A stretch of DNA of 64,000 bases from positions 171,837 to 235,836 of the forward strand of contig NW_003204277.1 in NCBI RefSeq assembly GCF_000006405.1. The letters run 5' to 3'. The notes under the pieces are model-generated. The model was given only the letters and a program-made list of their open reading frames with translations. It had not been told where the DNA came from and made no database searches. Shown one piece after another: positions 16,364-58,835 of the stretch. The stretch's first letter is position 1. Every line of letters begins with the position of its first letter. The stretch comes from Perkinsus marinus ATCC 50983. Its lineage: Eukaryota; Perkinsozoa; Perkinsida; Perkinsidae. Both the position numbers and the translations under genes were made by a program.

Positions 16364-17227
16364 ATGGAGGATAAGCTCTCACTGAAACGCGCTGCTGCTA
16401 CTCGTCGTCGTAATGGCGGTGGTCGCATGGTGAGTATTATTCTATATGCCGCTGCTGGGGTTAGAACTTGCGACCTTCCGCAGGATGGCTTCCTCCAAGC
16501 GATGTCCAATCTTCTGGAGCATATGGTCCTTGTCGCCTCATTAGAAAGGGCTGACTGTAAGTGAATGTGAAGCATGAGTGCTCGTCATGGTCCATGTCTT
16601 AGGTCCGGGAACACCCACCCGATTCCATGGTGTCAGCCCCCCAACCATTTCAATCTACCACTACCTTCAACGAGTAGAAGCGCACTTCAGAGTAAGCCGG
16701 TATTCATGTGTTTGTAGCTGGTGAGATTTGTATGTGTTCAGTGCTCTTCCGAATGCTTCGTCATTGCACTCATTTACATTCATCGACTACTCAAGACACA
16801 AGGCCCGAACTTCGTTGTTAGTATGTGCGCCATTCATCGGTAGTCTCAATCACCCAGAGTTCGCTATCTTACATTATTTCGATTTTCTTGCCAGAGTTAT
16901 CCTTACTGCGGTCGTGCTAGCAGCGAAGTTCTTCGACGATCGTTATTACAGTAACAGGTTTTATGCTGCTGTTGGCGGTGTTAGAACGAAAGAGCTAAAC
17001 GCACTAGAGGCTGATTTCCTCAGACTCATCAGTGAGGCACTTCTCAGTGAAGAGCTCATTATTGTGTATTTCTTTTAGATTGGAACCTCCACACTTCACC
17101 TCAGGAATACGAGTCTTATCGGATGAGTGTTTGGTCATCAGTTGAGCCAACGATGCTGCCACTATCATCATCCCCTCCCCCACCAGAAATGCTTATCAAT
17201 CTCATTAAAGTAGCATATGGAAGTTGA
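16364..17227 (+). CDS. PHO80-type (P/U-type) cyclin, gene 2
   Basis: Six exons in phase: 16364-16429, 16484-16556, 16603-16691, 16742-16839, 16895-17031 and 17079-17227. The product has [20 protein letters not shown] (first helix), [52 protein letters not shown], and [19 protein letters not shown], in the order expected of PHO80-like cyclins. All internal splice phases equal those of cyclins 1 and 3, so they are tandem duplicates. The ATG at 16364 gives a basic 22-residue leader; an earlier in-frame ATG at 16226 exists but would add a hydrophobic stretch unlike the other copies. The first intron (16430-16483) contains a tRNA T-arm-like segment in antisense orientation. Confidence 0.8.
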
Positions 17228-32665: not shown

Positions 32666-34328
32666 ATGGCGGATAATGATTGGAAATACCGAATCAATCG
32701 TAAGGGGAGTATTCCTGAGGAACTGTTGAAACGATCACGCACTGGTAGAACTGGGAGCTCACATCGCCGATATCGAGCAGAAGCATATGACGGAGATGAG
32801 ACGGCAAGAGAGGGAAATACAGGCACTCAAGGACAGGGTCGATGGTAGGCAGTGAGAGGTGGGTAGGATGATGATGAATTGGATGTAGGTTTGAGGATGG
32901 AGAACGAGCAGTTGACTACGCTTGTGGGGACGTCAGATGCAGGGAATGATCCTCTTACCAGAAGGGTGGAATGGACTATAACTGGTGAAAAATAGCGGGT
33001 CTGGGGATCGAACCGGATATCTCTGTTCGTAACGTTCAGGTATTAGAGAGCAGTTGAAGGTGTGCCCGAAAAACGTCAGCATTTGGAGTCCCGAGGTAGA
33101 ATACTGAGTCTTGGCGACATAACGTAAAGCGTCTTCAGTTCTCTGCTTGCGGGATTCGTAACATGCAGTTGGAATTCTTCCCACAAGGTCGTGAGACTGC
33201 AACTCTCGATGGTTTCTGTTCGGTCTTTTTCTGGTGTCCTGAAGGAACCAATATCAAATATCAGCTTTTTGTGGGCAATCACTACAGGTGAGCTGCATCT
33301 TGAGAACTCATTTGATGGGCGCTGATAGGGCGCGGAAATTATCAGTAATTTACCAGTGGTAATTACATCTCTAAAGAGATCGCAGTGGTGATTCAGCGTG
33401 GCAGTTTCTCTCTTCCAAATATCTCTCAGAGCTCCTGATGAGGATATTTACGACTCACGTATGGGTCATGGACACTCCAATTTCTGTTTGCTCGACGCGG
33501 AAATCGATAACGTTACTGACAGGTGGAATGCTGCTGTACATTGGGCTTCATTGGAATCTTGTTGTTCTTGTAGTGTCACTGTTGGCGTTGACATCTTAGA
33601 CGTGTCGAAGGTGTATGAGATGGGCAGGGGAGAAATTAAAGTAAGTAGTGAATGTGCTCATCTGAATAGCCTGAGAACACCCCCCTTTGAAGATTCATAG
33701 GTTGTCGTTGAACAATCTAATACGGCGGGAAGTGTTAGTAGTGGAGAATCGTGATGTATCTACGGTGGAATGGAAGATATCGAAAATATCTTCCAAGTTA
33801 GCCGCTGCACCTCGTGGAGCAAGCCTGTACAGTCCTATCTTCACGGCTGCAGGTAGGCCCTATATATCTAGCTTATCGATCACATGATCGATTATATAGG
33901 CATTCGGGATATGCTCCTGGAGTTCTACCCCAACGGCAATGCTAATACCAAGAAGGTGCGCCTCCATTGTGATACCATCTTTGTCGCAACTATCATCTTC
34001 AGGAAGGATATTGCAGTCTTTATCTACGCTGTCCAGAAGGTACACAAATAGTCGTCACTTTGATAGTGGGCTCTTACAAAAAAGGGCCGATAATGGCTAA
34101 GGTAGGCTTGACGTAGGGCTGTGTCGTTTATGAGATTCACATCAGTTCGACGGTTCGGCTGGTAAAGGCCTTCCGGAGTTCTGTGAGTTGATGGGGCAAA
34201 TTAATAAAGACGATGATTCCATAGTGGTGGGGTTGGAATTGAAGAATGCTGCTGCGCCTGGTACTGACCACGGCAGCGGTAAGAAGACGCTCCTCAAGCT
34301 CGAGAGTGGTGGGCAATCCTTTCAATAA
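32666..34328 (+). CDS. Coiled-coil protein with two MATH (TRAF-like) domains
   Basis: Eleven exons join in phase: 32666-32699, 32749-32844, 32889-32984, 33040-33095, 33139-33287, 33430-33522, 33574-33640, 33693-33852, 33900-33955, 34003-34101 and 34146-34328, giving about 362 residues. Residues 10-55 form a coiled coil (AHIADIEQKHMTEMRRQERE, IQALKDRVDGLRMENEQL). MATH domain 1 starts RRVEWTITG, has IRNMQLEFFPQGRE, GFCSVFFWCPEGTNIKYQLF and ends VTDSVTVGVDIL. MATH domain 2 starts STVEWKISKISSKL, has SLYSPIFTAAG, LEFYPNGNANTKKEGYCSLY and LRCPEGTQIVVTLIVG, and ends DSIVVGLEL. MATH domains bind peptides in adaptor and ubiquitin-ligase systems. No RING or BTB domain is present. The intron 32985-33039 carries an antisense tRNA T-arm-like segment. 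Confidence 0.8.
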
Positions 34329-34857
34329 TTACTTTGTTGTTACATGCAGTAGCCGATAGAATTATCTTGTTGTCGAGTTGTCGGGTGCAGGGATCGAACC
34401 TCCGATGTCAGGGCTCGTTGCAGTTGACCGTATATTATCAGAAATGTCAGTACAACCGCCAAGGAATACGCGATTCATTGGTCTAGCCATTGATGGTGGA
34501 CTGGTGAGGAAGGGAATCGTCATCTCCTCAACTCGTCGTCTTGGGGCCATTTGCTTGCTGTGCATCTCTTTCGTGTTGTTAACGCCGACAGAACAGATCT
34601 TCCTAGTGAGTTTTGCCTCATCGAGGCTGTATAGGCATGGACATCGTAATTGTGATTGTGTAGAGTATAGCTGACGATATTGGTCCCTCTCTTTAGCCAC
34701 CATCAGAGACCAGTGACATCTACCATATGCATGATCCCCTTATTGAGAGGACTTATCCTATAATTAGAGGATTTATCGCTGGGAGGATTCCGGTAAGAAT
34801 AATTCGATTCCAGCCTCTACACCGTCAATTGTAACTTCTATCGAACATTTCAACTTT
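34329..34857. other. Intergenic region, tRNA-like motif, no supported gene
   Basis: Overlapping open frames exist on both strands (34378-34674 plus, 34362-34703 minus) without recognisable domains. At 34385-34410 the sequence GTGCAGGGATCGAACCTCCG, read on the minus strand, resembles a tRNA T-arm, and it is followed by a possible acceptor TTGCAG. Confidence 0.35.
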
Positions 34858-35355: not shown

Positions 35356-36533
35356 GATGACGAGGTGATGGTAGCTGATGAAAGTCTAAAGCAGGACGGT
35401 GTTGGTTTGGTCCGTTGATATCATTTATTAATAGTACATTATCGTATTGAAGACATTCTTGCATCGTTCTTCCCTTTCCTCCTCGTAAAACTGCTTCTGT
35501 TGCAGTTGAGGGTCGTATGATGCATAAGTCGCAGCAGGGAGGAGGATCACCGATCACTTGTCTAATGTAAGACAAAGATGATGATCTTATCTGTTCTGTT
35601 TTCATGTTGAGTCGTAACAATGGTGGATTACGTGATTCAGAGGCTAAGAATTGTCGTATTGGGATGAGCATTGACAGTAGCTATCTCATAAATATCGTCG
35701 AGGGGTAATCTTTGGTACGTCATCAGCTATGCTGTGACTGCTTCAATAAGTCGCAAGCAGTCAAGTGAGTTCAGCTATGGGTGAATCTATTGCCGATCAA
35801 CCATAAGCAACTGAATCAGTGAAGTATATCAGTTGATAATCATCGCAACTAAGAGATGGTAATCGAATTAAACGCGACCACAGTCGCTCTATCCTGAGCA
35901 GCCTTGATAGATAGGAATTCTCTCTGTAGATAGTGAGAATCCGGATTTGTCAAGTATAGGACTTGCCTCGTCCTATCATACGAGGAAGCGAATATCCAGT
36001 AGATCGCCTAACTAGTAAGGCCGAAGGAAGCACGGCACTGAACTAGATTATTTCATGATATATCTCGGATTCTGATCTCTCGTGCTGGATTCAGCTCAGC
36101 TCAGCTCCAGCGATTGCCACAGATTTGTACGTATTCTAATGGCCTCGATCCGCGAGATCATGTGGAATTCCTCTTCTTCCAGTATATGCTGCCATACACA
36201 GTTCGTTTGGAACTTGCACCATGTTCAAGGGAAGGATCATTCGCACGCACGTGCATATTACACACCGAAACACCCGTGTGACGACTCTAGATGCTAATGC
36301 TGCGATATAACTTGGTCGATGAGACAAAACCCTCAGTTCAGTAGTATATGCCTATTCATTCGATACTAAAAGTGAAGAGAGTGCCTTTATCCTTACTGGA
36401 GTCACTCAATCGCTTCATATGCATTCCCCCCTGCTCCTTCCAACTGAACACGATAACAATATCTTGAAAAACACTTATGAGTAGTCATTAGAGTTCCTAA
36501 AAATAAGGTCGCTTATCCTCCCACTAGAACGAC
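35356..36533. other. Downstream flank of the PDI gene
   Basis: No domain-bearing frame. Short frames such as 36082-36297 also occur in the second copy but do not resemble proteins. A CAGCT pentamer repeats three times at 36088-36106. Confidence 0.4.
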
Positions 36534-38618
36534 TCAAGTCGCTACCATATCCTCCTCAGGCTCTTGCTGAGCGTCCTTACCATCCCACTGGGTGACAGTA
36601 TGCAGCTTAGGAAGATTCTTAGGAATTGGATCGAGGGTAACCTGAGCGAAGATGTGATCATGTGAATGGTTGAGGTTTGACGATATACCTTCCCAGCCAT
36701 TAGACCCGACACAAATTCTCTGATATTGGCCTCGTCGAACCCCCCACGATGAACTCCATAGTGGCCTTTTGATAAATGGACCGCCACCAACGCCGGATAG
36801 CTGAAGGGATACTGTGGACTATGAAGTAATTGCGTAACTACCCGAACTGTAGTCGAAGAGCTTCCTCGAACTCAAATTGGTCCCCACCTTGCGACCAGTA
36901 ATAATGAACAGGAATACCAGGGTTAGCTACAATGAGGAGATTAGCGTGGGCATACGGTGAGGCTACTGCTACCTTTGATGGCAGCATTGTACTCCTCGAT
37001 GTAAGCATTCCTCCCCTGGGCTCCTGAGTCCAATATATGGGGTAAAATGGCGATAACGCAGACACGACCTGATGATCGAAACCCATCAAAATTACGAAGG
37101 AACGACATTGACGATTTCCACTACTGTTGCAGTTGTCCTCAAAGTCGTCCTGACTAAGTAACTGGGTCGCCTCTATAGCATAACTCAGATATCTAAATGG
37201 TTAAGTCACCAACAAGATGAGAGGACTGAGTACAGTGAACCTACTTCTCGGCGAACTCGACTATACTACTGGTTTCCCGCTGTTCCTGATAGTCAACTGC
37301 AAGGCCATCCGACTTCTTCCCACCTGGGAATAGTTTGATCTGAGTTAGGCAAGCGTGGGTTAGGCAGGATCCTAGTAGTAGCTATCTACAGTAGGGAAGC
37401 CCTGCACGCCGAACCTCTGGGCCAAGGACTGCTCTTCAGTGGCATCAACCTGGTGAATCACATCACAAGGTTGATCTAATGAGAGGGTCACTTTCCCAAA
37501 CTTGACTCGTCCTTTCATCTTAGTAGCTGCTGCCGTCCAATGAGGAGCCAATGCTTTACAATGACCACACCAAGGGGCGTAAAACTCTGATAATTAGAAC
37601 TGATAATATTCACTGTGACACAGGAATGCTCACCGACAAACCACACTGACTTCGGATCTTGCATAACTAACTTGTCGAAATTGCTGCCAGTGAGAGCCTA
37701 CTGACGACATGACTAAAGATAACATCATCACCTAAACCATGTTTGATTTCTCCAGTTGAGCTCACCAGTCTTCAGAGCTACATTATGGAGATCTACACAC
37801 GGCTTAGGGAATACAATAACCAACAACTACTCCCCTAAATTCGTAAAGAACTTTCATATTGTCATTAGCACATGTAGTGGACCCTGTACATATTCCCACA
37901 CCGACTCGAAACCCTACAATGACGTCATCCTCATTCCCCTCCGGTTGCGTGTCGGCCTTCTTGGATTTACCACCAGAGTCCTTCTTGGCCTTCTTCGGCT
38001 TGGATTTCTCAGCGAGTCGATCGTTCGCGATCTTCTTAGCCTATATATTACCAAATCACAAGATAATACTCATGCACGGTCACATGTGAGAGAGCATATT
38101 TGACCAGCCCCTTGGCTTCCCTTGGACCGCTGTAGTCAACAGGCTTAGACTTGTCCTCACCAAAAAACTTAACAGTGGGGAAGCCTAAAAGCAGTCACCA
38201 GGGATCGAACTTGCGTCCTACATAAGTACGTACCCTGAACACCATAGAGACCCATCACCGACTGATCATTCACAGCCGCCAAGTTGACAATCCCCGCGAG
38301 AGCACTGGCAGCCTGAGGAAGAAAATACCCCTGGTGGGAATAGAACCGGGGACCTTCCGATTACCTTCTCATATTCAGGTGCAAATTGTTGACAATGACC
38401 ACACCAATCAGCATAGAACTCCACTACCCACAATTCATTACCTACAACACCAATAAAACGATGGCGATAATGGCAATTATGCTACTACTTTGAACAACCG
38501 TTTTGGTGAATGTTTGAGCGTCCAACACTTGAACGAAGGAACTCTTCTTGCCATAGAGAGCACCGGCCAGCGTACACTCGCTCAGTAGGCAGATGAGAGA
38601 GAGGAAAAATAATAACAT
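36534..38618 (-). CDS. P5-type protein disulfide isomerase (PDIA6-like), copy A
   Basis: Multi-exon ER oxidoreductase. Exon 1 (38618-38486) encodes a signal peptide [20 protein letters not shown]. Exon 2 (38441-38365) holds the first thioredoxin active site [20 protein letters not shown], exon 3 is 38312-38234, exon 4 starts at 38184 with [21 protein letters not shown] lysine-rich linker follows, then a second active site [17 protein letters not shown] near 37590-37540, [20 protein letters not shown], and the P5-specific C-terminal domain with [37 protein letters not shown] and [12 protein letters not shown]. It catalyses disulfide formation and exchange in the ER. The final frame ends EPEEDMVAT without a KDEL-like signal; an unmodelled last exon may supply one. 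Two introns (38313-38364 and 38185-38233) contain sense-strand tRNA T-arm-like segments. Confidence 0.8.
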
Positions 38619-38860
38619 CGTGGATATACCACACCAAGGTGAACTATGATGGAGTTGAATAATACTGCCACGTGGCACTCTGAGCTAGACGGTGCAGAAA
38701 ATGTAAGAGAATGGTCCCTGCCAGTAGCGGATGTATTGGTATTAAGTCAATCGTCCTCTTCTTCCCTTCCTCGCTGCCAATTTAACGATCACTTCGATCA
38801 CTTCATTTCTTTCCCCTTATACCTACACGATGTGATGTTGCAAAAGAGTAGTATGGAGTA

Positions 38861-39671
38861 CTACGATTTCTTCCCATGCGACCAAGGCACATATCTACGT
38901 TTTATCATATGCTGAAGTACAACAATAAGATCACCATCATAGCGGTGCCATTGTATGTACCTTTATCTGTTGCTTCATAGTGAGAGTGAAAAGCATTATA
39001 AAGTACATCAAGAGGATAGGCCAGAACACGGGTAGGTCGAAGAAAGGGAAAAACTGAGAGGGAATTATCAAAGTGGGCGGGGTGAATGAGGCTACCGTCA
39101 TAGTGATGGAGATTACTGTCGCTTGCATGGCCCTCTTCCAGAATACGAACTCTGGCAGTCTGCGCTGGAACGGTCTGAATTCATCCGAATCTCTGAGAAG
39201 AAGAATTACTGCCATAACCTCTTGCATAGTTATGATTACCGCGTTGGTAGAACGGGAGAGTTGCTATCCTCGTCGTCCACTTGAGGGGATATAAAGCCTA
39301 TAAACAGATTGAGTAGGTAGATAGACCAGGCATAGGTGATGATGTAAAAACCTAATAATCAATGGTGAATGGCAGTAAGGCGTAGTCTGATCACCCTGGA
39401 GGAGGTATACTCTGATACCGTATAAAACGCATGCTGTGAGGAAGGCCAACCAACGGCTCTTCGACCAGATTGTGGTCTTCTCGAGGTAATAGGTGTACCT
39501 TCAACAACAGAGGGAGATATAGTGATAGTTAAGATGGTGGTTCCATCACATTCGAGAGAGGCCTCGGGCAGTTCGAACAGGGAAGGACGGTCGTACTATC
39601 TGGTGGGCATCCCCTCCGGTTGATGATGATGACGATGACATAACACCATCTAGGGCAGAAGGCTCCATCAT
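38861..39671 (-). CDS. RER1: RER1, Golgi-to-ER retrieval receptor, copy A
   Basis: Six exons in phase: 39671-39550, 39498-39395, 39351-39240, 39192-39096, 39053-38961 and 38911-38861, giving 192 residues, the usual RER1 length. The product has [20 protein letters not shown], then [29 protein letters not shown] with SPQVDDEDS, the family hallmark [40 protein letters not shown], and the tail [16 protein letters not shown]. Four membrane segments are evident. RER1 recognises polar residues in transmembrane segments of escaped ER proteins and returns them by COPI vesicles. It lies 240 nt upstream of the PDI gene, same strand. The 42-nt intron 39054-39095 restores exactly the family spacing before PVFWP. 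The ATG at 39668 is an equally good start. Confidence 0.93.
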
Positions 39672-40614
39672 GAAGTGGAAATAATTACATGAAAAGGCGC
39701 AGGAGTGGTATCTTATGGTAGGCCCAAGATTTACCAGAAATTAAGTAGCCACTGTAGGTGATCATGTCAACATAAGCGACCGATCAGTTAGGGGATACAT
39801 TAGACACATTCCCCACAGGGGATGGCGGCCGGCATGTAGGCCTTACATGTCTTGCCCTTTTCTTGTTATTAGTGATCTCTCCAATGAACTCTGTGATGAT
39901 CTCTCATCGTGTGGGAGATGAGCTTCCGTGCTCTGGGATGCCCTTTCCCCTTTCCCGAGCATTACGCTAGTGACACTATTGTGATAGAAATCAGGTATTA
40001 TTTATCTGATGATATTGCCTCTCATTGGATAGTGTCATCAAGTTCTTCCGCAAAGCTCATGTATCAGGATTTTATCAGGCACCCAGCGATCAGGTCTTGA
40101 ACACTGGGACATTCGACTCGCCTTAGTAAGGGCAACAGATCGCCAAGCCAGTATATGAGAGCCTTCCAAAATCGTTCAGTTTCCACCAAAAGTGGGAATT
40201 TGAAGAGGAAATGAGATATCGTTGAGATTTGGAGAGGAGTCGAAAGCCCTGATCAGCATCACGATACAATGATCCGATCACTGAGCTGATACATTACAGA
40301 CGGCCGGTATGAGAAAGATTAACAAGTGATTGCCAACAACAGTCGCTCACTTCTGGCCGCCAGAAATTCAGTAACTTCACCCTGATGGCTGCACGAACTG
40401 GGCTCATGGAGTCTCCTTCTTGTGTGAAACTTATCCGATTATCAGACATCAATGAATCGTTGCTGTTATTCCGGCAATTTACTGATATCCATGGACTTAC
40501 CACAGCAATGGAACCCCCACAAATCGATTGAATGGGCGCGCGCTACTGTCTTGCGCAGTCCGGGGACTACGGTGAAAGCCTCGTCTGTGGCGATTTAGTT
40601 TTTTGTCTCCCACA
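39672..40614. other. Divergent promoter region between RER1 and pyruvate kinase, copy A
   Basis: Shared head-to-head upstream region of RER1 (minus) and the pyruvate kinase gene (plus). No domain-bearing frame. The same region recurs at 43697-44716 with small indels, including about 60 nt around 43752-43800 present only in the second copy. Confidence 0.45.
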
Positions 40615-40969
40615 ATGTTGTCGACCCATGGATACACCGGACGTTTTATCAAGGACCACTGCGTGTATGGTCAAGCTTCCATAGTGCTATCTGATAACAT
40701 GGCGGCATTGTCTAAGTGGAGTTCTAATCCTAGTGATACTTTTGGGAGGAAGACCAAGATCATATGCACTATGGGACCATCATGTTGGGATGTTGATACC
40801 TTGGTAAAGATGATCGATCAGGGTATGAACGTGGCGAGGTAATTATTACATTTGTGATGATCGTAGCTGAGGCTGTTAATTTCAGACTCAATTTTTCTCA
40901 TGGTGATTTTGAAACCCACGGTGCTACGGTCCAGCGTATCCGAGAGGCATTGAAGCAGCGTCCTGGGAA
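40615..40969 (+). CDS. PYK: Pyruvate kinase, 5' part cut by assembly gap (copy A)
   Basis: Exon 1 (40615-40838) encodes [20 protein letters not shown] to [10 protein letters not shown]; exon 2 starts at 40886 after a 47-nt intron and reads [12 protein letters not shown] until the N run begins at 40970. Start is the first ATG, aligned with the starts of the paralogues downstream. Nearly identical to 44717-45071, so it is probably the other allele of that gene rather than a sixth gene. Confidence 0.9.
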
Positions 40970-41069
40970 NNNNNNNNNNNNNNNNNNNNNNNNNNNNNNN
41001 NNNNNNNNNNNNNNNNNNNNNNNNNNNNNNNNNNNNNNNNNNNNNNNNNNNNNNNNNNNNNNNNNNNNN
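40970..41069. other. Assembly gap of exactly 100 N
   Basis: A run of 100 unknown bases, the conventional length for a gap of unknown size. The sequence on the right does not continue the gene on the left but restarts at the equivalent of 35517. Confidence 1.
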
Positions 41070-42136
41070 ATGATGCATAAGTCGCAGCAGGAGAGGATCA
41101 CCGATCACTGTCTATGTAGACAAAGATGATGACTATCTATCTGTTTCATGTGAGTCGTAACAATGTGGATACGTGATTCAGAGGCTAAGAATCATCATAT
41201 CGGGATGAGCATTGACAGTAGCCATCTCATAAATATCGTCGAGGGGTAATCTTTGGTACGTCATCAGCTATGCTGTGACTGCTTCAATAAGTCGCAAGCA
41301 GTCAAGTGAGCTCAGCTATGGGTGAATCTATTGCCGATCAACCATAAGCAACTGAATCAGTGAAGTATATCAGTTGATAATCATCGCAACTAAGAGATGG
41401 TAGTCGAATTAAACGCGACCACAGTCGCTCTATCCTAAGCAGCCTTGATAGATAGGAATTCTCTCTGTAGATAGTGAGAACCCGGATTTGTCAAGTATGG
41501 TACTTGCCTCGTCCTATCATACGAGGAAGCGAATATCCAGTAGATCGCCTAACTAGTAAGGCCGAAGGAAGCACGGCATTGAACTAGATTATTTCATGAT
41601 ATATCTCGGATTCTGATATCTCGTGCTGGATTCAGCTCAGCTCAGCTCCAGCGATTGCCACAGATTTGTACGTATTCTAATTGCCTCGATCCGCAAGGTC
41701 ATGTACCGCACCATGAGGATTTCCTCTTCTTATTGTATATGCTGCCATACACAGTTCGTTTGGAACTTCCACCATGTTCAAGGGAAGGATCATTCGCACG
41801 CACGTGCAGATTACGCACCGAAACACCCGTGTGACGACTCTAGATGTTCATGCTGGGATATAACTTGGTCGACGGGACAAAACCCTCAGTTCACTAGCAT
41901 GTGCCTATTCATTCGATACTAAAAGTGAAGAGAGTGCCTTTATCCTTACTGGAGTCACTCAATCGCTTCATATGCATTGCCCCCTGCTCCTTCCAACTGA
42001 ACACGATAACAATATCTTGAGAAACACTCATGAGTATTCAAAACCACACTTACGACGAGCGTCCACTCGGAAGCCAGGGTCATTAGAGTTCCTAAAAATA
42101 AGATCACTTATCCTCTCACTAGAACGACTCAAGTCG

Positions 42137-42651
42137 CTACCATATCCTCCTCTTGGCTTCCCTTGGACCGCTGTAGTCGACCGGCTTAGACTTGTCCTCA
42201 CCAAAAAACCTAACAGTGGGGAAGCCTAAAAGCAGTCACGAGGGATCGAACTTGCGCCCTACATAAGTACCTACCCTGAACACCATAGGGACCCATCACC
42301 GGCTGATCATTCACAGCCGCCAAGTTAACAATCCCCGCAAGAGCACTGGCAGCCTGAGGAAGAAAAATACCCCTGGTGGGAAAAGAACCGGGGACCTTCC
42401 GATTACCTTCTTATATTCAGGTGCAAATTGCTGACAATGACCACACCAATCAGCATAGAACTCCACTACCCACAATTCGTTACCTACAACACCAATAAAA
42501 TGATGGCAATTATGCTACTACTTTGAACAACCGTTTTGGTGAATGTTTGAGCGTCCAACACTTGAACGAAGGAACCCTTCTTGCCATAGAGAGCACCAGC
42601 CAGCGTACACTCGCTCAGTAGGCAGATGAGAGAGAGGAAAAATAATTGCAT
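42137..42651 (-). pseudogene. P5-type PDI, copy B, truncated by internal deletion
   Basis: Same signal peptide and first thioredoxin domain as copy A ([20 protein letters not shown], then [12 protein letters not shown] and [15 protein letters not shown]), with the same introns. After PREAK the sequence jumps to the very end of the gene: 36558-38109 of copy A is missing, and the join shifts the frame so that translation stops at 42137 four residues later. The second active site and C-terminal domain are lost. This may be a real deletion allele or an assembly error. Confidence 0.75.
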
Positions 42652-42835
42652 CGTGGACATACCACACCAAGGTGAACTATGATGGAGTTGAATAATACTG
42701 CCACGTCGTACTCTGAGCTAGACGGTGCAGAAAATGTAAGAGAATGGTCCCTGCCAGTAGCGGATGTATTGGTATTAAGTCAATCGTCCTCTTCGTCCCT
42801 TCCTCGCCGCCAATTTAATGATCACTTCGATCACT

Positions 42836-43696
42836 TCATTTCTTTCCCCTTATACCTACACGATGTGATGTTACAGAGGAGTGGTATGAAGTACTACGAT
42901 TTCTTCCCATGCGACCAAGCACATATCTATGTTTTATCATATGCTGAGTACAACAATAAGATCACCATCATAGCGGTGCCATTGTATGTACCTTTATCTG
43001 TTGCTTCATAGTGAGAGTGAAAAGCATTATAAAGTACATCAAGAGGATAGGCCAGAACACGGGTAGGTCGAAGAAAGGGAAAAACTGAGAGGGAATTATC
43101 AAAGTGGGCGGGGTGAATGAGGCTACCGTCATAGTGATGGAGATTACTGTCGCTTGCATGGCCCTCTTCCAGAATACGAACTCTGGCAGTCTGCGCTGGA
43201 ACGGTCTGAATTCATCCGAATCTCTGAGAAGAAGAATTACTGCCATAACCTCTTGCATAGTTATGATTACCGCGTTGGTAGAACGGGAGAGTTGCTATCC
43301 TCGTCGTCCACTTGAGGGGATATAAAGCCTATAAACAGATTGAGTAGGTAGATAGACCAGGCATAGGTGATGATGTAAAAACCTAATAATCAATGGTGAA
43401 TGGCAGTAAGGCGTAGTCTGATCACCCTGGAGGAGGTATACTCTGATACCGTATAAAACGCATGCTGTGAGGAAGGCCAACCAACGGCTCTTCGACCAGA
43501 TTGTGGTCTTCTCGAGGTAATAGGTGTACCTTCAACAACAGAGGGAGATATAGTGATAGTTAAGATGGTGGTTCCATCACATTCGAGAGAGGCCTCGGGC
43601 AGTTCGAACAGGGAAGGACGGTCGTACTATCTGGTGGGCATCCCCTCCGGTTGATGATGATGACGTAACACCATCTAGGGCAGAAGGCTCCATCAT
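42836..43696 (-). CDS. RER1: RER1, copy B, with frameshifted C-terminus
   Basis: Same six-exon structure as copy A. In the last exon one C of GTGCCTTGG is missing (GTGCTTGG, about 42915-42925), so the family tail [12 protein letters not shown] becomes [13 protein letters not shown] and runs on to a stop at 42836. All four membrane segments and [13 protein letters not shown] are intact. In the first exon six bases are missing in frame within the serine run. If the single-base loss is a sequencing error, this is simply the second allele of an intact gene. Confidence 0.85.
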
Positions 43697-44716
43697 GAAG
43701 TGGAAATAATTACATGAAAAGGCGAAGGAGTGGTATCTTATGGTAGGCCCAATAATATACGGAATATGTCCCGTACCCGCACATAAACCTACACAACACT
43801 TGCCAGGCTTTACCAGGAATTAAGGAGCCACTGTGTATGCTAAGAAGACAAACTAGAGGTGATCATGTCAACGTAAGCGACCGATCAGTTAGGTGATACA
43901 TTAGACACATCTCCCACAGGGGATGACGGCCGGCATGTAGGCCTTACATGTCTTGTTCTTTTCTTGTTATAAGTGATCTCTCCGATGAACTCTGTGATGA
44001 TCTCTCATCGTGTGGGAGATGAGCTTCCGTGCTCTGGGATGCCCTTTCCCCTTTCCCGAGCATTACGCTAGTGACACTATTGTGATAGAAATCAGGTATT
44101 ATTTATCTGATGATATTGCCTCTCATTGGATAGTGTCATCAAGTTCTTCCGCAAAGCTCATGTATCAGGATTTTATCAGGCACCCAGCGATCAGGTCTTG
44201 AACACTGGGACATTCGACTCGCCTTAGTAAGGGCAACAGATCGCCAAGCCAGTATATGAGAGCATTCCAAAATCGTTCAGTTTCCACCTAAAGTGGGAAT
44301 TTGGAGAGGGAATGAGAAATCGTTGAGATTTGGAGAGGAGTCGAAAGCCCTGATCAGCATCACGATACAATGATCCGATCACTGAGCTGATACATTACAG
44401 ACGGTCGGTATGAGAAAGATTAACAAGTGATTGCCAACAACAGTTGCGCACTTCTGGCCGCCAGAAATTCAATAACTTCAACCTGAGGGCTGCACGAACT
44501 GGGCTCATGGAGTCTCCTTCTTGTGTGAAACTTATCCGATTATCAGACATCAATGAATCGTTGCTGTTGTTCCGGCAATTTACTGATATCCATGGACTTA
44601 CCACAGCAATGGAACCCACACAAATCGAATTGAATGGGCGCGCGCTACCGTCTTGCGCAGTCCGGGTACTACGGTGAAAGCCTCGTCTGTGGCGATTTAG
44701 TTTTTTGTCTCCCACA
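43697..44716. other. Divergent promoter region between RER1 and pyruvate kinase, copy B
   Basis: Equivalent of 39672-40614. No coding segment. Contains about 60 nt near 43752-43800 that copy A lacks. Confidence 0.45.
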
Positions 44717-46465
44717 ATGTTGTCGACCCATGGATACACCGGACGTTTTATCAAGGACCACTGCGTGTATGGTCAAGCTTCCATAGTGCTGTCTGATAAC
44801 ATGGCGGCATTGTCTAAGTGGAGTTCTAATCCTAGTGATACTTTTGGGAGGAAGACCAAGATCATATGCACTATGGGACCATCATGTTGGGATGTTGATA
44901 CCTTGGTAAAGATGATCGATCAGGGTATGAACGTGGCGAGGTAATTATTACATTTGTGATGATCGTAGCTGAGGCTGTTAATTTCAGACTCAATTTTTCT
45001 CATGGTGATTTTGAAACCCACGGTGCTACGGTCCAGCGTATTCGAGAGGCATTGAAGCAGCGTCCTGGGAAGCATGTTGCGGTCCTTCTGGATACTAAAG
45101 GGCCTGAAATTAGAAGTGGTTTTTTCAAAGAGTCTGGTGGCAAGGTTAAGCTAGTGGCTGGTAATGAGCTTATCCTTACTACTGACTATGGTTACAAAGG
45201 CGATTCTGATATGATCGCATGCAGTTATAGTAAACTGCCTCAGAGTGTCAAGCCTGGGTCTACGATCCTAATGGCTGATGGCACTGTCAGTTTGAAGGTT
45301 ATTGAATGCCTCGAGGACAGCGTTAGAACTCGGGTTATGAACAATGCTATCATTGGTGAACGTAAGAATATGAACTTGCCTGGGGTTAAAGTGGATCTGC
45401 CATGTATTAGCGAGAAAGATAAGAATGATATTTTGAATTTTGGTATACCGCAAGGGGCCAATTTTATAGCAGCTTCCTTTGTCCAGGATGGCGATGATGT
45501 AATGACCTCTTCTGTTCGCTTATTGTCGATTGTTATTTTGTAGGTAAGGAGTCTACGTAAGCTGCTTGGCCCGAGAGGTCGCCATATTAAGATCATATCC
45601 AAAATCGAGAATGAGTCCGGTATGAAGAACTTTGATGACATCCTGGCGGCCTCTGATGGTATCATGATCGCTCGTGGTGATCTTGGTATGGAAATCCCAC
45701 CTGAGAAGGTCTTCCTCGCTCAGAAGATGATGACTGGACGATGCAATATCCTGGGCAAGCCGGTCATCACCGCTACTCAGATGCTTGAGTCCATGATCAC
45801 TAACCCCAGGCCTACTCGTGCTGAGGCTAGTGATGTCGCCAATGCCGTGTTGGATGGAACTGATGCTGTGATGCTATCTGGGGAGTCGGCAGGAGGGGCA
45901 TTCCCTATACAAGCTGTGACTATTATGAGAAGGATCTGCGAGGAGGCGGAGACCTGTATTGACTACGATACTTTGTTCCAGAGAATACGTGAGACTGTTA
46001 TGAATCAAAGCCAAGGGGTAGGCTGTGGTAATTGTTCTTGTTATTGTAGCACTCAGGGATTGGCCATACCAGAAGCTGTATGTTCATCTGCAGTGAAGGC
46101 TTGTATTGAATGCAACGCTAAGCTCATCGTTGCACTAACTGAGACGGTAATGCTAGAAATTGATTATTACGATGAATGTCCTTTAGGGGTCTACGGCAAA
46201 GTTGTTGGCGAAGTATCGTCCGTATCCACCAATACTGGCCCTGTCTGCATCTGAGTCTACTGTCAAGCATTTGCAGCTATATAGAGGGATCGTAGCCTTA
46301 CAAGTGCCGTCTTTTCAAGGCACTGATCATGTCATAAGGAATGCTCTTGATCACGCTAAGCAGATGGGCCTATGTTCGATTGGTGATAAGATAGTCGCTG
46401 TGCATGGTGTAAAGGAGGAGGTGAGCGGATCTAGTAATCTGATGAAGGTCCTCGAGGTAGACTAG
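44717..46465 (+). CDS. PYK: Pyruvate kinase, intron-containing copy (PK1)
   Basis: Five exons in phase: 44717-44940, 44988-45498, 45544-46017, 46057-46146 and 46187-46465, about 525 residues. It converts phosphoenolpyruvate and ADP to pyruvate and ATP, the last step of glycolysis. Visible are [46 protein letters not shown], the active-site lysine motif [57 protein letters not shown] and the C-terminal domain ending [13 protein letters not shown]. Glu in KGPEIR is the residue linked to potassium dependence. The 39-nt intron 46018-46056 is a multiple of three and readable through, but its removal gives exactly the length of the paralogues. It is the only complete pyruvate kinase here with introns. 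Confidence 0.93.
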
Positions 46466-46858
46466 ATCGGGGGGAACGACGTTACCATAAGGAGCACACA
46501 CTTTTTTGCTAATGAGATCAGGAAGGTATTTGATGATCTGCTATTGATTAGTAAACATTCATCGTGCTATGATGGTCTCACTTCAAGTTTTTCATGGTCT
46601 ATCCAATGAGGGTTGCGTTCTGCTCTCTCGGTAGCTATCAAGTTTCGTCATGCACAATTACGATGGAAGGTTTCCGTTGCGATGATCACCTAGTGGGTCG
46701 ACCACTAATTTGCACATGTGACTCTCCGCCGTCTTCGAAAGCTTTCTATCCCTGGGGTGACTAAAGAGTTGTTACGTATTGGGTTTTGACAATTTCAAAG
46801 GGTGAAAAAGTACGATGCTTTCAGACTGGTTTTCAATCATTCAGTACGATTCTCTATA
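46466..46858. other. Spacer between pyruvate kinases PK1 and PK2
   Basis: About 390 nt. The next frame is open upstream to 46802 but has no ATG before 46859. No element recognised. Confidence 0.4.
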
Positions 46859-48463
46859 ATGGTTGATGATCTTGTTGATTCTCCGTTAGCTCGCCATGGC
46901 TTCACTGGACGTTGTGTACGAGGGAAGCGAGTACTTGGTCAAACACATGTTGCTATGGGTGATGACCTGGCGGGGTTGTCGGTTTGGACTGAAAACTGCT
47001 ATGCTCCCGACCCGCTGTATAGGAAGACCAAGCTCATATGCACTATGGGACCATCATGTTGGGATGTTGATACCTTGGTGAAGATGATCGATCAGGGTAT
47101 GAACGTGGCGAGGTTCAACTTCTCTCATGGTGACTTTGAGACCCATAGTAGAACTCTGAGGAATTTGATGGATGCACTCAGGGAGCGGCCAAATAAGGAC
47201 GTTGCTGTCATGCTCGATACCAAGGGACCCGAGATCCGTTCGGGTTTCTTCGCCGCTGGTGGTAAGGTCGAGCTCGAGGCCGGTCAGGACTTGATCCTCA
47301 CCACTGATTACTCCTTCAAGGGTGATGCTCATAAGATCGCCTGTACCTATGAGAAGCTCCCCCAGAGTGTCAAGCCCGGTTCCATCATCCTTATGGCTGA
47401 TGGTACGGTTAACCTGGAGGTTGTTGAGTGCTACGAGGACAGCGTTAAGACTCGTGTCTTGAACCACGCTATCATCGGTGAGCGTAAGAACATGAACCTC
47501 CCCGGCGTCAGAGTCGACCTTCCCTGCATTGGTGAAAAGGAGGCCAACGATATCCTCAACTGGGGACTTCCTAACGGAATCGATTTCATTGCCGTCTCCT
47601 TCGTCCAGCATGGTGATGATATTCGTGAACTGCGGAAGGTGTTGGGAAGTCGTGGTCGGAAGGTTCAGATCATCTCCAAGATCGAGAGCACTGAGGGTCT
47701 TAGGAACTTTGATGATATCCTTGAGGCTTCCGATGCCATTATGATTGCTCGTGGTGATCTTGGTATGGAGATGCCCCCTGAGAAGGTCTTCCTCGCTCAG
47801 AAGATGATGACTGCTCGCTGCAACCTCGCTGGCAAGCCCGTCATCACCGCTACTCAGATGCTCGAGTCCATGATCGAGAACCCCAGACCCACTCGTGCTG
47901 AGGTCAGTGATGTTGCTAACGCCGTTCTCGACGGTTCTGATGGTGTTATGCTATCTGGTGAAAGTGCAAGTGGCAAGTTTCCTATCAGTGCAGTTCACTT
48001 CCAGCGCTCCATCTGTGAGGTTGCTGAGCATTCAATCGACCATGATGCCCTTTACTGTCGCATTCGCCAGGCTGTTATCAACACCCACCCACAAGGTATG
48101 TGTTATGCTGAAGCGGTTTGTACATCAGCGGTTAAAGCAGCTCTCGAGTGTGATGCTTCCCTCATAATAGCTCTCACTGAGACCGGCAACACCGCCCGAC
48201 TTATAGCCAAGTACAGACCACCTCAACAGATATTGGCTCTGTCTCGGTTTGAGTCAACTGTGAAGCACTTATCCCTCTGTAGAGGCGTTATTCCTCTACA
48301 AGTGCCCTCGTTCCAAGGTTCTGATCATATACTACATAATGCACTCGCACATGCTACGCAAATGGGGATGTGCCGAGTTGGCGACAAAGTTGTTGCCGTC
48401 CATGGTAGACAAGATTCGACCCCTCGTGCTTGTAAGCAGGTGAAGATTCTTGTTGTGGAGTGA
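46859..48463 (+). CDS. PYK: Pyruvate kinase PK2, intronless, mosaic
   Basis: 534 codons from ATG 46859. All pyruvate kinase motifs are present: [92 protein letters not shown]. The N-terminal 115 and C-terminal 170 codons have their own, less biased codon use and diverged sequence (for example HPQGMCYAEAVC and GRQDSTPRACKQV), whereas 47203-47515 and 47660-47920 are practically identical, base for base, with PK4 at 52517, silent sites included. This indicates gene conversion by a PK3/PK4-type donor. The leader is 10 or so residues longer than in the paralogues. Confidence 0.93.
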   Translation: MVDDLVDSPLARHGFTGRCVRGKRVLGQTHVAMGDDLAGLSVWTENCYAPDPLYRKTKLICTMGPSCWDVDTLVKMIDQGMNVARFNFSHGDFETHSRTLRNLMDALRERPNKDVAVMLDTKGPEIRSGFFAAGGKVELEAGQDLILTTDYSFKGDAHKIACTYEKLPQSVKPGSIILMADGTVNLEVVECYEDSVKTRVLNHAIIGERKNMNLPGVRVDLPCIGEKEANDILNWGLPNGIDFIAVSFVQHGDDIRELRKVLGSRGRKVQIISKIESTEGLRNFDDILEASDAIMIARGDLGMEMPPEKVFLAQKMMTARCNLAGKPVITATQMLESMIENPRPTRAEVSDVANAVLDGSDGVMLSGESASGKFPISAVHFQRSICEVAEHSIDHDALYCRIRQAVINTHPQGMCYAEAVCTSAVKAALECDASLIIALTETGNTARLIAKYRPPQQILALSRFESTVKHLSLCRGVIPLQVPSFQGSDHILHNALAHATQMGMCRVGDKVVAVHGRQDSTPRACKQVKILVVE

Positions 48464-49472
48464 AGTTATCAGCTGTTTTTATTGTAAATATTGTCCATTT
48501 GACTGCTGTTCTCAAAGTAGTCGTTGGCAGATACTCCTATTCAGTATCAGTGTTGTTGACCATCGTGGCAGGTTTCTCAATCTTTTTCTAAGTTTCCCTC
48601 TCCCCCTAGAGAGTATACATCACTAGTAAGCTTAGTATGAGCTAGTTCACTCACCAATCGCAGTTACTGCGTACACCTTGTAGGGTTGATGTGTCTTAAA
48701 CCATCTACCTCTTGCTAATCTTCCGCCTTATCGACTTCCTTGCTATTGGTGATGCCAAGAGATGCTGAAGCCATTTCGTTGAGACATGTACGGTTGAGTT
48801 CTGCCTTTCCGTCAATAGAGAACTTCCGCGATGCTCAAAGTTTGTAACTGAACAGCACGAGGTGAGGATTGATAGCAAGGCGAAGACGGTTCAGTGATAT
48901 ACATATGGAGACGCGTTTGCACGCATGCACAACCAATCACGACTAGATGTTATGGTCATCTCTACTGTTCAGTTCCAGCATTTGACATTCGTTGTTTCTG
49001 GTCCTGACGTAACTTTCTGAACAACTGGTTGGTCTGTTGTGACGCAACAGGTCATCATGACTTACTGGGCCCACAATTAGCGATGGATAGTGTGGTTTCG
49101 TAACGAGTGGTATGTCAGCCTGAGGTGAGCTTATCCTCGCATTATGGTGATTCCGTGATGATAATACATTCAATGTAACTCGATTCGAACGACTATGTAT
49201 GGCTCAACAAAGCCTTGCCTGTCTCTGGAGACGATCTTGCGCTAAGGGGAGGCTCTCGAGCTTTGTGTGATGTTGTCTCCCGAGCGATCGTGGCTGCTTA
49301 GCTAATTCTCCCGAATTCTTAAGGGCAAACAATACTGACATTCTGCATAGAATCGGTGAATTGGCGTATACTAGGGGGATAGTGTGATGTGGGATTGGTA
49401 TTGGAGAGAAAAGGTGAACGCTTTGGGCGGACGATGATGGGGTTCTCGCAGTGAATTACTTTCCCTAACAAC
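48464..49472. other. Spacer between pyruvate kinases PK2 and PK3
   Basis: About 1 kb without a supported gene. Minus-strand frames at 48943-49173 look random. It should contain the PK3 promoter. Confidence 0.4.
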
Positions 49473-51041
49473 ATGTCTCACGGCTTCAGCGGACGCTCTA
49501 TCAAGGACCACGGTGTTCTCGGTCAGGCCGCCGTCTCTATCACTGATCAGATGGCCGACCTCGCCGCCTGGGATGGTTCCAGCTGTGACCCCATCACCCG
49601 TAAGACCACTCTTACCTGCACTATGGGTCCTTCTGATTGGGATGTCGAGACCTTGGTTAAGATGATCAACCAGGGACTCAACATCGCCAGGTTCAACTTC
49701 TCCCACGGTGACTTCGAGAGCCACAGCAAGTGCCTTGCTAACCTCAAGGAGGCTCTCAAGCAGTGCCCCGGCAAGCACGTCGCTGTCATGCTCGATACCA
49801 AGGGACCCGAGATCCGTTCGGGTTTCTTCGCCGCTGGTGGTAAGGTCGAGCTCGAGGCCGGTCAGGACTTGATCCTCACCACTGATTACTCCTTCAAGGG
49901 TGATGCTCATAAGATCGCCTGTACCTACGACAAGCTCCCCCAGAGTGTCAAGCCCGGTTCCATCATCCTTATGGCTGATGGTACGGTTAACCTGGAGGTT
50001 GTTGAGTGCTACGAGGACAGCGTTAAGACTCGTGTCTTGAACCACGCTATCATCGGTGAGCGTAAGAACATGAACCTCCCCGGCGTCAGAGTCGACCTTC
50101 CTTGCATTGGTGAGAAGGAGGCCAACGATATCCTCAACTGGGGACTTCCTAACGGAATCGATTTCATCTCCGCTTCCTTCGTCCAGCATGGTGATGATAT
50201 CCGTGGTCTTCGTAAGTTGATGGGTGAGGCCGGTAAGAACGTTCAGATCATCTCCAAGATCGAGAGCACTGAGGGTCTTAGGAACTTCGATGATATCCTT
50301 GAGGCTTCCGATGCCATTATGATTGCTCGTGGTGATCTTGGTATGGAGATGCCCCCTGAGAAGGTCTTCCTCGCTCAGAAGATGATGACTGCTCGCTGCA
50401 ACCTCGCTGGCAAGCCCGTCATCACCGCTACTCAGATGCTCGAGTCCATGATCGAGAACCCCAGACCCACTCGTGCCGAGGTCAGTGATGTTGCTAACGC
50501 CGTTCTTGACGGTTCTGATGGTGTTATGCTCTCTGGTGAAGCCGCCAGCGGCAAGTTCCCTGTGAACGCCATTTCCATCCAGCGTCGCATCTGCGAGAGC
50601 GCCGAGTCTGTCATCGATTATGACTCTCTTTACCTCCGCATCCGTGAGGCTGTCATGAACAAGCACCCTGAGGGTCTCTCTGTTGCCGAGTCCATCTGCT
50701 CTAACGCTGTTGGTCTCGCCTCCGAGGTCAATGCCTCTCTCATCCTCGCCCTCAGTCAGACTGGTTCTACTTCTCGTCTTTTGGGCAAGTACCGTCCTCG
50801 TCAGCAGATCTTGTGCGTCACCGACAACAAGCACACCGTTGCCCACACCGCCGTCGCTCGTGGCATCCTCCCCTTCCAGGTTGAGTCTCTCAAGGATACC
50901 GAGACTGTCATTGCCAAGGCCCTCGAGTACGCCAAGTCTGTGGGTCTCGTGAAGGTTGGTGATAAGGTTGTTGCCGTTCACGGTATCAAGGAGAACACTG
51001 CTGGTGCCACCAACATGATGGAGGTTGTCAATGTCGAGTAA
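49473..51041 (+). CDS. PYK: Pyruvate kinase PK3, intronless, strongly codon-biased
   Basis: 522 codons, start MSHGFSGRSIKDHGVLGQAA. Complete enzyme: [66 protein letters not shown] with the catalytic lysine, [36 protein letters not shown], and a C-terminal domain ending VAVHGIKENTAGATNMMEVV. The N-terminal helix differs from PK1/PK2/PK5 (PSDWDVE instead of PSCWDVD). Codons are overwhelmingly C- or T-ending with AAG, GAG and CTC preferred, which normally signals high expression, so PK3 and PK4 are probably the main housekeeping enzymes. The bias also leaves a 536-codon antisense frame open. Confidence 0.96.
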   Translation: MSHGFSGRSIKDHGVLGQAAVSITDQMADLAAWDGSSCDPITRKTTLTCTMGPSDWDVETLVKMINQGLNIARFNFSHGDFESHSKCLANLKEALKQCPGKHVAVMLDTKGPEIRSGFFAAGGKVELEAGQDLILTTDYSFKGDAHKIACTYDKLPQSVKPGSIILMADGTVNLEVVECYEDSVKTRVLNHAIIGERKNMNLPGVRVDLPCIGEKEANDILNWGLPNGIDFISASFVQHGDDIRGLRKLMGEAGKNVQIISKIESTEGLRNFDDILEASDAIMIARGDLGMEMPPEKVFLAQKMMTARCNLAGKPVITATQMLESMIENPRPTRAEVSDVANAVLDGSDGVMLSGEAASGKFPVNAISIQRRICESAESVIDYDSLYLRIREAVMNKHPEGLSVAESICSNAVGLASEVNASLILALSQTGSTSRLLGKYRPRQQILCVTDNKHTVAHTAVARGILPFQVESLKDTETVIAKALEYAKSVGLVKVGDKVVAVHGIKENTAGATNMMEVVNVE

Positions 51042-54085: not shown

Positions 54086-54951
54086 ATACTAGACGTTCCT
54101 GTTCATAGTGCGAGTTTCCTTGGGTACCAATTTCCCTTCATACCACTTAGTGTGGTATATCTGGCGTAACAGTTAGCCAGTTCGTTCCAACAGTCGGTTA
54201 CACCGCTGTGTTGTTTAACGAATTTCAGTGTTGTGTTGCTCTCTCAATATTGAGGACAAACACCAGTCCCAATGTGGCGGAGTCCTGGATTGGCATATGT
54301 GCCCCAAAGTGGAGCTGGCTTTACCAACAGTGGTCCATCTAAGTGGGAGTTTCGCCAGTCATATTCATTGACCTTCCCATTTCGTGTTGAGTACTTGCTT
54401 CTACCAAGGCATATCTTGGAGTGGCATAGCTGCCCCTTATGGAAACTGATTATACTAAGAGGGGGAAAGGCTTCAAAACGGTGTAGTCTGACTCACGGCC
54501 CGTGGAATATAGGAGTCCTCAACTCTCGCCGATACACGATTCACTCCTATCCCAATCCTCAGCCTCGCCGGCAATATCCCGGTAGACACTGCTAAACACG
54601 ACCTCTGGTCTTTATAACGTGGCGGGCATGCGTGCAATACTTGGTCGTGTAATACCCACAAAGTCCGTACCGTTCGTTCGACATTCATCTTCCAGTGGCT
54701 TCAGCTAGACCATTGTCGATCCAGACATGCAGGTAAGGTGAAGTGATTACGGCGAAACGCGGATCGACTTGCACGTAGATATTGTCGAGATGACCGCGCA
54801 AGCCTCGCTACGAGTTTATCACGTTCAGGCGTGCTGGTCATGATCTGCGCCGTGGGTCCGGTGTAAATGTCTAATCTGTAGATGGTCGGAGGAAGATATA
54901 TAGGTCGGTCTAGGATATCTTTTCGAGTCTCTCTGTTGCATCATCACGTGA
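54086..54951. other. Spacer between PK4 and PK5
   Basis: About 870 nt; open frames at 54272-54595 and 54473-54688 lack homology. No element recognised. Confidence 0.4.
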
Positions 54952-57477: not shown

Positions 57478-58835
57478 ATGAGCGGTTTGATGGCAGACCC
57501 CAATGCTGCTAACATGGCTGATGCTGTAGAGGTAAGTATCTACCTTCAAAACTGTTACCTGGTCCCGTATGGATTCACATTTAACCCTGTGTTTTGGGGC
57601 TGCACTCGACAGGAGGAGAGGAGTAGGGGTATCGGAGAGATGGCTGCGAAGCATGATCTCGCACTGCTACAGGAGGTGAGGGCTTGGAAACTCCAGCGAG
57701 GAGTTGGACGAGGAGTGGTATGATTAGGTATGGGGTTCGTATACATACAATATTGACCGTGCACTGAAGAGCAGCCATGATGTTTTAGAAGGGTACTCAA
57801 GTAGCAGTGGCAGTAACTATACTGATTGGTGGTATATGTATTGGAAGCAGACTGGAGGCTTGTATGAGGCATGGAGAAAGGAAGGACCACTTAGAAAACT
57901 GAAGTGGTGGAAGAAGACGTTCAGAAAGAGGTTAGGCCATAGGCTCTACTGCAGGTGTTGACGTAACTCTACCCATCTCTCTTCAGTGTCCCTTTCACAC
58001 AGCAAGGTTGTATCTGTACATGCTTTCAAGTAGCCGATGCTCAAGGAGTCGACACTCCGATGAAGTTGATGGTGGTGAACTCGCACTATGACGTCCTTGG
58101 AGGTTATACCCATCGCCAATCCAACACTGAGGATTTGAAGAGCCTCATCAAAACTGCACTGGAGGAGTAAGAGACAACGCTGCTAATTTCTGCTTGTATG
58201 GTTTTAGAGCGATCGCTTCCGAGTTGATTGACCCGCAGCGCACAGGGTTTCTGGTCTGCGGGGACTTCAATGTATTCGACATTTCTCCGTGAGCAAGAGC
58301 GAAGCGGAGTAAGTTCGGAATATTACGCTTTACGATCGATAGGTATTATGAGAAACTCCGAACTCTGGATGGTGTAGCGAAGACCCGTGATTTGTGGCGA
58401 GAGGTTCATGGCGATGATGATGGAGAGTAACCCATAGGTCCCCGGTTCGAATCTTAGGAACGGCATCTCATCTACAGATATCGTTATACGGTTCACAGCC
58501 ATCATAAGAAGGCCAAAGAAACGTTGCCAAACGCCGACGGCAACAGTTTGTTCCCGTGGCCCTTGCCTCCAATAAGAGTGAGGTCATCAGTCACTGCATT
58601 AATCAGATTCATGATGTTTCAGATTGATCATTTCCTCGCCTTGGACGAGTTCGAGGGTATCAAGTTCGCTAGAATTGAATGTTCTGAGATAGAAGTATGT
58701 GCTTCTTACATTTTCTCTGATAATTCGGCAGCGGAGCGAAGCGAATCTTGTCAGGTTCTGCGACAGCCGTATGGCAAGGAGCTTGCTGACCACTGGGGCC
58801 AACACTGTGTTATATCAATGAAGATTGTTAGATAG
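57478..58835 (+). CDS. Endonuclease/exonuclease/phosphatase-fold enzyme, nSMase-like
   Basis: Multi-exon gene. Exon 1 (57478 to about 57675) gives YLVPYGFTFNPVFWGCTRQE, ERSRGIGEMAAKHDLALLQE, matching the first strands of the fold, with the metal-binding Glu in LLQE. Later exons hold MKLMVVNSHYDVLGGYTHRQ (catalytic His region), ELIDPQRTGFLVCGDFNVFD (the GDFN motif), YEKLRTLDGVAKTRDLWRE, IDHFLALDEFEGIKFARIE and KELADHWGQHCV, the final Asp-His. The order and the NPVFWG/ERxxxIGE start recall neutral sphingomyelinase or inositol phosphosphingolipid phospholipase C; a nuclease is the alternative. Intron 58427-58477 carries a sense-strand tRNA T-arm-like segment. The middle exon borders (about 57770-57960) are uncertain. 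Confidence 0.68.

Follow-up and report, generated by a model that had tools for sequence, protein, structure and literature searches.

The closest described systems are introners, dispersed families of similar sequences that make up the introns of many unrelated genes. Most introner families described so far bear one or more signatures of DNA transposition, according to the main text of Gozashti et al. (2022, PMC9860276), in which the terms tRNA, SINE and Perkinsus do not occur. The family reported here from Perkinsus marinus resembles those introners in its dispersal and its place in the introns of many genes; unlike them as that text presents them, it has a tRNA 3'-half core and copies that appear old and divergent, and neither inverted repeats nor target-site duplications were found in it. 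The introner elements of Amoebophrya, an early-branching dinoflagellate, are likewise repeated introns, reported to have inverted repeats of 8-20 nt, direct repeats of 3-5 nt and non-canonical splice sites (Farhat et al. 2021, PMC7789003), whereas the family here has GT-AG introns, the sole kind that our gene models allow, and no such repeats. The literature listings and opening portions of abstracts that we searched held no tRNA-derived intron family and no Perkinsus introners.

tRNA-derived SINEs have a B-box, tRNA spacing, an oligo-T end and genome-wide dispersal. All four are common to them and to the P. marinus family; in contrast to SINEs, nearly all copies here are without the A-box or 5' half, the unit is ~37-50 bp, and no target-site duplication was found. 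Extra-TFIIIC (ETC) sites have a B-box without an A-box, as do copies of this family, which adds a variable loop, C72-A73 and a T-run at tRNA spacing.

The family came to notice in the window, by which we mean the whole 64,000-nucleotide stretch analysed (C72:171837-235836), where the tRNA-like words quoted in the preliminary description are indeed present. A position-weight profile found eight copies there, and in the gene models all eight lie in predicted introns. Two of these, both in sense, belong to a PDI-like gene on the minus strand: intron 2 (52 nt, 38313..38364), with the unit running from AGGTC at 38355 to an A and T-run, and intron 3 (49 nt, 38185..38233). Both are GT..AG introns, and their excision restores a thioredoxin domain (residues 29-125, E 1e-36) across both junctions, at residue 69 for intron 2 and residue 95 for intron 3; the joined exons read EYEK/AASALAG at one of the two. 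The gene model of a tandem PDI copy, also on the minus strand, has sense units in intron 2 (53 nt, 42354..42406) and intron 3 (49 nt, 42226..42274). The remaining four copies are in plus-strand predicted introns. One is in sense (51 nt, 58427..58477); three are antisense, the unit being on the minus strand, at 32985..33039 (55 nt), at 16430..16483 (54 nt, upstream of a cyclin domain and outside the Pfam match) and at 34309..34411 (103 nt, the weakest of the eight). The introns at 58427, 32985 and 34309 are gene-model predictions, and the MATH and EEP-fold labels earlier given to two host genes were not upheld, the models of those genes having no such Pfam match.

Other features of the window are a several-kb tandem duplication at 35629-44928 that includes the PDI-like gene, with blocks 94-100% identical, and a tandem array of four similar unbroken open frames at 46802-56523. 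The last of these frames matches pyruvate kinases, its closest named relatives among the 120 best matches listed being from Perkinsus olseni (73%) and P. chesapeaki (70%). A 15-base unit is repeated in tandem about 24 times at 13977-14334, within a predicted minus-strand gene.

The unit is also present in both introns of a third PDI gene, on C74, so that both introns predate that duplication. PDI genes on C122, C82 and C186, which are 43-46% identical, have residues 2-82 or 2-83 in a single unbroken frame, a pattern that intron gain and intron loss would produce alike.

Word searches of the genome (54.46 Mb, 347 contigs) gave counts far above those of reversed controls. The exact 13-mer AGGTCCCCGGTTC occurs at 153 places and its reversal at none; the 10-mer GGTTCGATCC occurs 1,199 times and its reversal 48 times; and GGGTAATSNNAAGGTC, which extends the unit on its 5' side, occurs at 19 places against 0 in the control. 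In 316 kb of sampled DNA, part of which comes from 30 tRNA loci and from 20 loci that the 13-mer had fetched, the profile scored above 14 at 86 places, compared with none in reversed sequence. When the tRNA genes were masked and a profile refitted to every sampled locus was used, 114 places scored above 10 (2 in reversed sequence), which collapsed into 94 distinct copies. Looser motifs were not enriched in the window, GGTTCRANNC with at most one mismatch being found 79 times (82 expected) and GGTTCGAATC 6 times (3.9 expected), and the claim therefore rests on the longer profile. Chance likeness of short GC-rich words, with which these loose-motif results would agree, is ruled out by the genome-wide counts of 153 vs 0, 1,199 vs 48 and 19 vs 0, and we give it practically no weight. 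Since GGTTCGATCC is present in exact form in 19 of 43 unbaited copies (44%), the family is estimated at ~2,500 copies, by extrapolation from those 43: (1199-48)/0.44 gives ~2,600, of which a small part are real tRNA genes.

The unit and its edges were defined with 60 of the first 64 listed places of GGTTCGATCC, taken in genome order from C1-C19; of the four omitted, two had already been sampled, one is beside a known tRNA gene and one is near a contig end. The common unit is ~37 bp long and corresponds to tRNA positions 44-73 followed by a T-run. A44-G-G-T-C48, C50, C62, G64, C72, A73 and T74-78 all stand at tRNA spacing, which bears out the proposal that the layout of AGGTC, a stem and GTTCRAnnC is that of a tRNA variable loop and T-arm. 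Column frequencies were.53 for A44,.48 for G45,.62 for G46,.42 for T47,.78 for C48 and.82 for C50; in the 3' part they were.77 for C62,.72 for G64,.62 for G65,.65 for G70,.70 for C72 and.67 for A73, and along T74-78 they were.65,.68,.73,.47 and.60. Positions 52-61 are the bait and are fixed by construction in this profile. The edges are sharp. In 55 copies (five belonging to longer repeats were dropped), mean information per position rose abruptly at position 44, from 0.03-0.07 before it (sampling bias 0.04) to 0.44 at 44-48; it was 0.33-0.45 at 64-78 and 0.14 at 79-83, and reached background beyond ~84. Most of the 60 copies have no sequence in common outside the unit. The B-box and T-run are at the spacing seen in tRNA-derived SINEs.

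Other marks of tRNAs and mobile elements were sought. An A-box like those of the genome's tRNAs was present in only 1 of the 60 copies, and the Rfam tRNA covariance model matched no copy up to E 10 in the window and eight further loci. Acceptor-stem pairing was not above that in shuffles (78 copies). Target-site duplications at intron borders, which the preliminary description had suggested looking for, were not found above shuffles in the same 78 copies: direct repeats of at least 6 were present in 12.8% vs 8.7%, although old copies could have lost them. Terminal inverted repeats of the kind that mark MITEs and DNA transposons were likewise at shuffled level (6.4% vs 7.4%). Together with the A-box and Rfam results, these values led us to reject identification as a canonical SINE, a MITE or a tRNA pseudogene.

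The idea that the T-arm is kept as an RNA structure fared no better, T-stem covariation being unclear. An earlier set gave 3.29 pairs vs 3.34 in shuffles, and the 60 copies gave 3.58 vs 3.44, a value equalled or exceeded by 118 of 2000 shuffles (248 of 2000 for the combined set). Such near-independent T-stem columns seem unusual if the copies are decayed from paired tRNAs. At some positions two letters are mixed (C/G at 49, G/C at 65), which suggests either several sources or a constraint like that on a binding site. Among 37 distinct genomic tRNA sequences, tRNA-Val(TAC) scored best against the profile (36.8), followed by Thr (27.2), the median copy scoring 30.5; because Ala, Gly, Asp, Met and other isotypes are absent from the compared set, we name no source tRNA.

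The resemblance of the independent two-letter columns to those of a binding site makes a B-box-type site a serious rival, and indeed the main one, though we consider it unlikely. The unit would then be a functional DNA site, namely an extended B-box to which TFIIIC or a comparable factor would bind, retained in introns and intergenic DNA because exons cannot carry it. The B-box core is the best conserved part of the unit (in the 60-copy profile that part is the bait), both orientations occur, and the lack of common sequence outside the unit in most copies is what such a site would show. Moreover, the three PDI paralogs agree at 11 nt of the intron 3 core and differ heavily over the first ~20 nt of that intron. 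Taken as wholes, however, introns 2 and 3 differ at 14/48 (29%) and 15/49 (31%) aligned sites, near the 8/26 for third codon positions of the exon between them, a divergence that appears to speak against strong constraint. Nor does a bound site lead one to expect C72, A73 and a T-run with the spacing of a tRNA, and the extended 5' flank at 19 places and BLAST relatives over 45-48 nt point instead to common descent.

In order to place the copies relative to genes, we used a gene finder self-trained on the sampled DNA, which drew on no RNA data and allowed GT-AG introns only. The run used was a lenient retraining; the first settings were too greedy and the next too strict (16% coding). It covered 75 of the 94 copies, the other 19 being on 401-base loci. 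Predicted introns held 35 of the 75 (19 sense, 16 antisense) and exons 8, with 32 outside genes, compared with base shares of 16% intron, 34% exon and 50% outside genes; predicted introns thus have an excess of copies, in both orientations. The 32 copies outside predicted genes mean that this is not exclusively an intron family. The 26 copies fetched with the 13-mer were divided 11 intron, 5 exon and 10 outside, and the 49 fetched otherwise 24, 3 and 22. When the long repeat described below was excluded (35 intron, 7 exon, 26 intergenic), the intron excess by base share had p 7e-12 vs exon and 2e-8 vs intergenic, values that are optimistic because a few copies are recent duplicates of one another. 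GC-matched random 30-mers fell in predicted introns in 15% of cases.

Splice-site scores around the 60 copies exceeded 10 in 45% of cases, vs 25% at 4,000 random places (rank test p 0.005 for the better strand, 0.06 sense, 0.04 antisense), which with a rough sensitivity of 0.67 would imply that about half of the 60 are in introns. A test of flanking coding potential gave 19% of the 94 copies vs 10% of 1,349 random places above the null 90th percentile, 6% vs 5% above the 95th and 0% vs 1% above the 99th; because random places inside long exons score high, we gave this test no weight either way.

Conserved domains provide a check on some of these introns. Of 10 proteins scanned, three have element introns inside a Pfam domain. 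These introns are four in number, all distinct and all in sense: the two PDI introns, one at residue 119 of an AMP-binding enzyme (L004, domain residues 3-171) and one at residue 138 of a response regulator (L057, domain residues 58-175). These four introns have GT-AG ends and join the frame inside a conserved domain, as spliceosomal introns do. The other seven proteins verified no element intron, so that the antisense introns rest on gene models. With that qualification, the recurrence of the unit in unrelated genes and in both orientations, first claimed from the window, holds genome-wide in predicted introns, and similar sequences in the introns of unrelated genes are what introners present. 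The response regulator locus (C104:118341-126341) has nine unit copies within 8 kb, of which predicted introns contain four in sense and three in antisense; an AT-rich locus, L058, has a similar number of units, mostly outside predicted genes.

The length of the introns bears on how the unit relates to them. Element introns have a median length of 51 nt (n=35), compared with 48 nt for 898 other predicted introns, so the unit fills an intron of normal length. A 37-nt insert into an existing intron would have given ~85 nt; because element introns are no longer than others, the unit is the body of the intron rather than an insert into an older one. P. marinus introns are reported to range from 39 to 1622 bp, most being below 100 bp (PMC3101222), and the short introns predicted here fit that range. 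In the 19 sense models the donor is 3-19 nt before position 44 in 16 and inside the unit in three, and the acceptor is 5-18 nt past the start of the T-run in 15 and inside the unit in two; in the gene models, antisense borders scatter more than sense ones.

It is improbable, then, that tRNA-derived SINE fragments or tRNA pseudogenes were inserted into pre-existing introns. Some sampled copies are part of longer repeats (a ~300 bp family), and reading by eye found A-box-like sequence upstream of a few (L041, L052, L009, L156), as such insertions might leave. They predict introns of ~85 nt or more, however, and of the 35 element introns 33 do not exceed 66 nt; this finding largely refutes them, and the single A-box in 60 copies and the lack of any Rfam tRNA score even at E 10 in the window and eight loci add to the case against.

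Several longer repeats were seen in the sampled loci. L050, L042, L049, L051, L052, L054, L058, L071, L074 and L076 each carry a longer dispersed repeat of ~250-340 bp, 82-94% identical to the L050 copy. This repeat bears the same T-arm, AGGTCCCCGGTTCGATCCCCGGGTAGGACATTT, and six of its seven modelled copies are outside predicted genes; it may be a SINE related to tRNA, and the unit's source may be a relative of it. L123, L124 and L050:2268-2361 have a 3' tail beyond the T-run in common (75-81% identity), suggesting another SINE-like family. L039:3242-3302 is a 61-nt hairpin, an inverted repeat that is close to perfect, amid sequence that is otherwise ordinary.

Evidence of descent from a common source comes from sequence retained beyond the minimal unit. 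Of ten distinct sampled copies with the extended flank, six appear on visual inspection to be sense introns, their donors including GTAAGTGGG, GTGAGTGGG and GTGGGTAAT. A whole-genome BLAST search with an intron from the response regulator locus (L057) found three other places, 87-94% identical over 36-48 nt. One of these matches starts exactly at position 44 and the other two start 9 and 13 nt before it; each stops at the T-run, short of the acceptor. A 33-mer from an L057 intron, allowing up to 3 mismatches, matched its own place alone in the genome. A whole sense intron of another subfamily, at L162, matched itself, a segmental duplicate on C162 and one further place over 33 nt, which indicates that close copies are rare; no recent copy or empty site was seen. 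On sequence comparison, common descent is thus supported for a subset of the copies.

Another candidate explanation is that introns multiplied as introns, by reverse splicing or intron copying, with the tRNA likeness going back to one founder intron. Sense introns of one subfamily do have a common donor region, around GTGGGTAATC. Against this stand the antisense position of the unit in 16 of 35 predicted introns, the end of homology at the T-run rather than at the acceptor, and the 32 of 75 copies outside predicted genes, which together make multiplication as introns very improbable.

The explanation that we favor, with a probability of roughly 0.58, is an old dispersed family from the 3' half of a tRNA or tRNA-like gene, which often became, and probably created, minimal introns. 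The preliminary description had proposed a tRNA-derived, introner-like or SINE-like family of about 50 nt. The recurring tRNA unit, its identity with the intron body and common descent for a subset of copies are in line with that proposal; SINE or MITE anatomy is not, given the near-absence of the A-box and the lack of target-site duplications or terminal inverted repeats above shuffles.

The source would have been tRNA positions 44-73 and a Pol III-type T-run, with up to ~15 nt extra on the 5' side in some copies, dispersed to ~2,500 places. The copies may have moved through a Pol III RNA that was reverse-transcribed, or by insertion at the DNA level; that they end at the T-run suggests an RNA source, the hallmarks of retroposition being gone. 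On landing in an exon, a copy would provide a ~37-50 nt spacer between a nearby GT and a nearby AG, close to the ~45-55 nt between GT and AG that appears to be spliceable in this genome. Such a spacer could work in either orientation, given a chance GT and AG nearby. In sense copies the T-run may provide the polypyrimidine tract, and the donor may come from a GTRRG that some subfamilies have near the 5' end; in antisense copies the donor and acceptor would mostly be just outside the unit. Selection against unspliced exon insertions would then leave only the spliceable cases.

On this evidence the family appears to work like an introner, short of established membership, target-site duplications not having been found. 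More tentatively, and with somewhat less than even odds, at least ~1,000 minimal perkinsid introns may have been made by inserts of 3' tRNA halves with a Pol III terminator, in either orientation, and would constitute a new class of introner.

The origin of spliceosomal introns is a long-standing question. Should the B-box site prove to be the right explanation, introns would conceal B-box-like DNA sites in very large numbers. If the tRNA-half explanation is true, a tRNA by-product would be a source of introns, its inserts serving as spacers that join a chance GT and AG at a spliceable distance. A family of tRNA 3' halves that works in either orientation with no change in intron length would add a different source of introns and suggest a simple spacer mechanism by which they arise.
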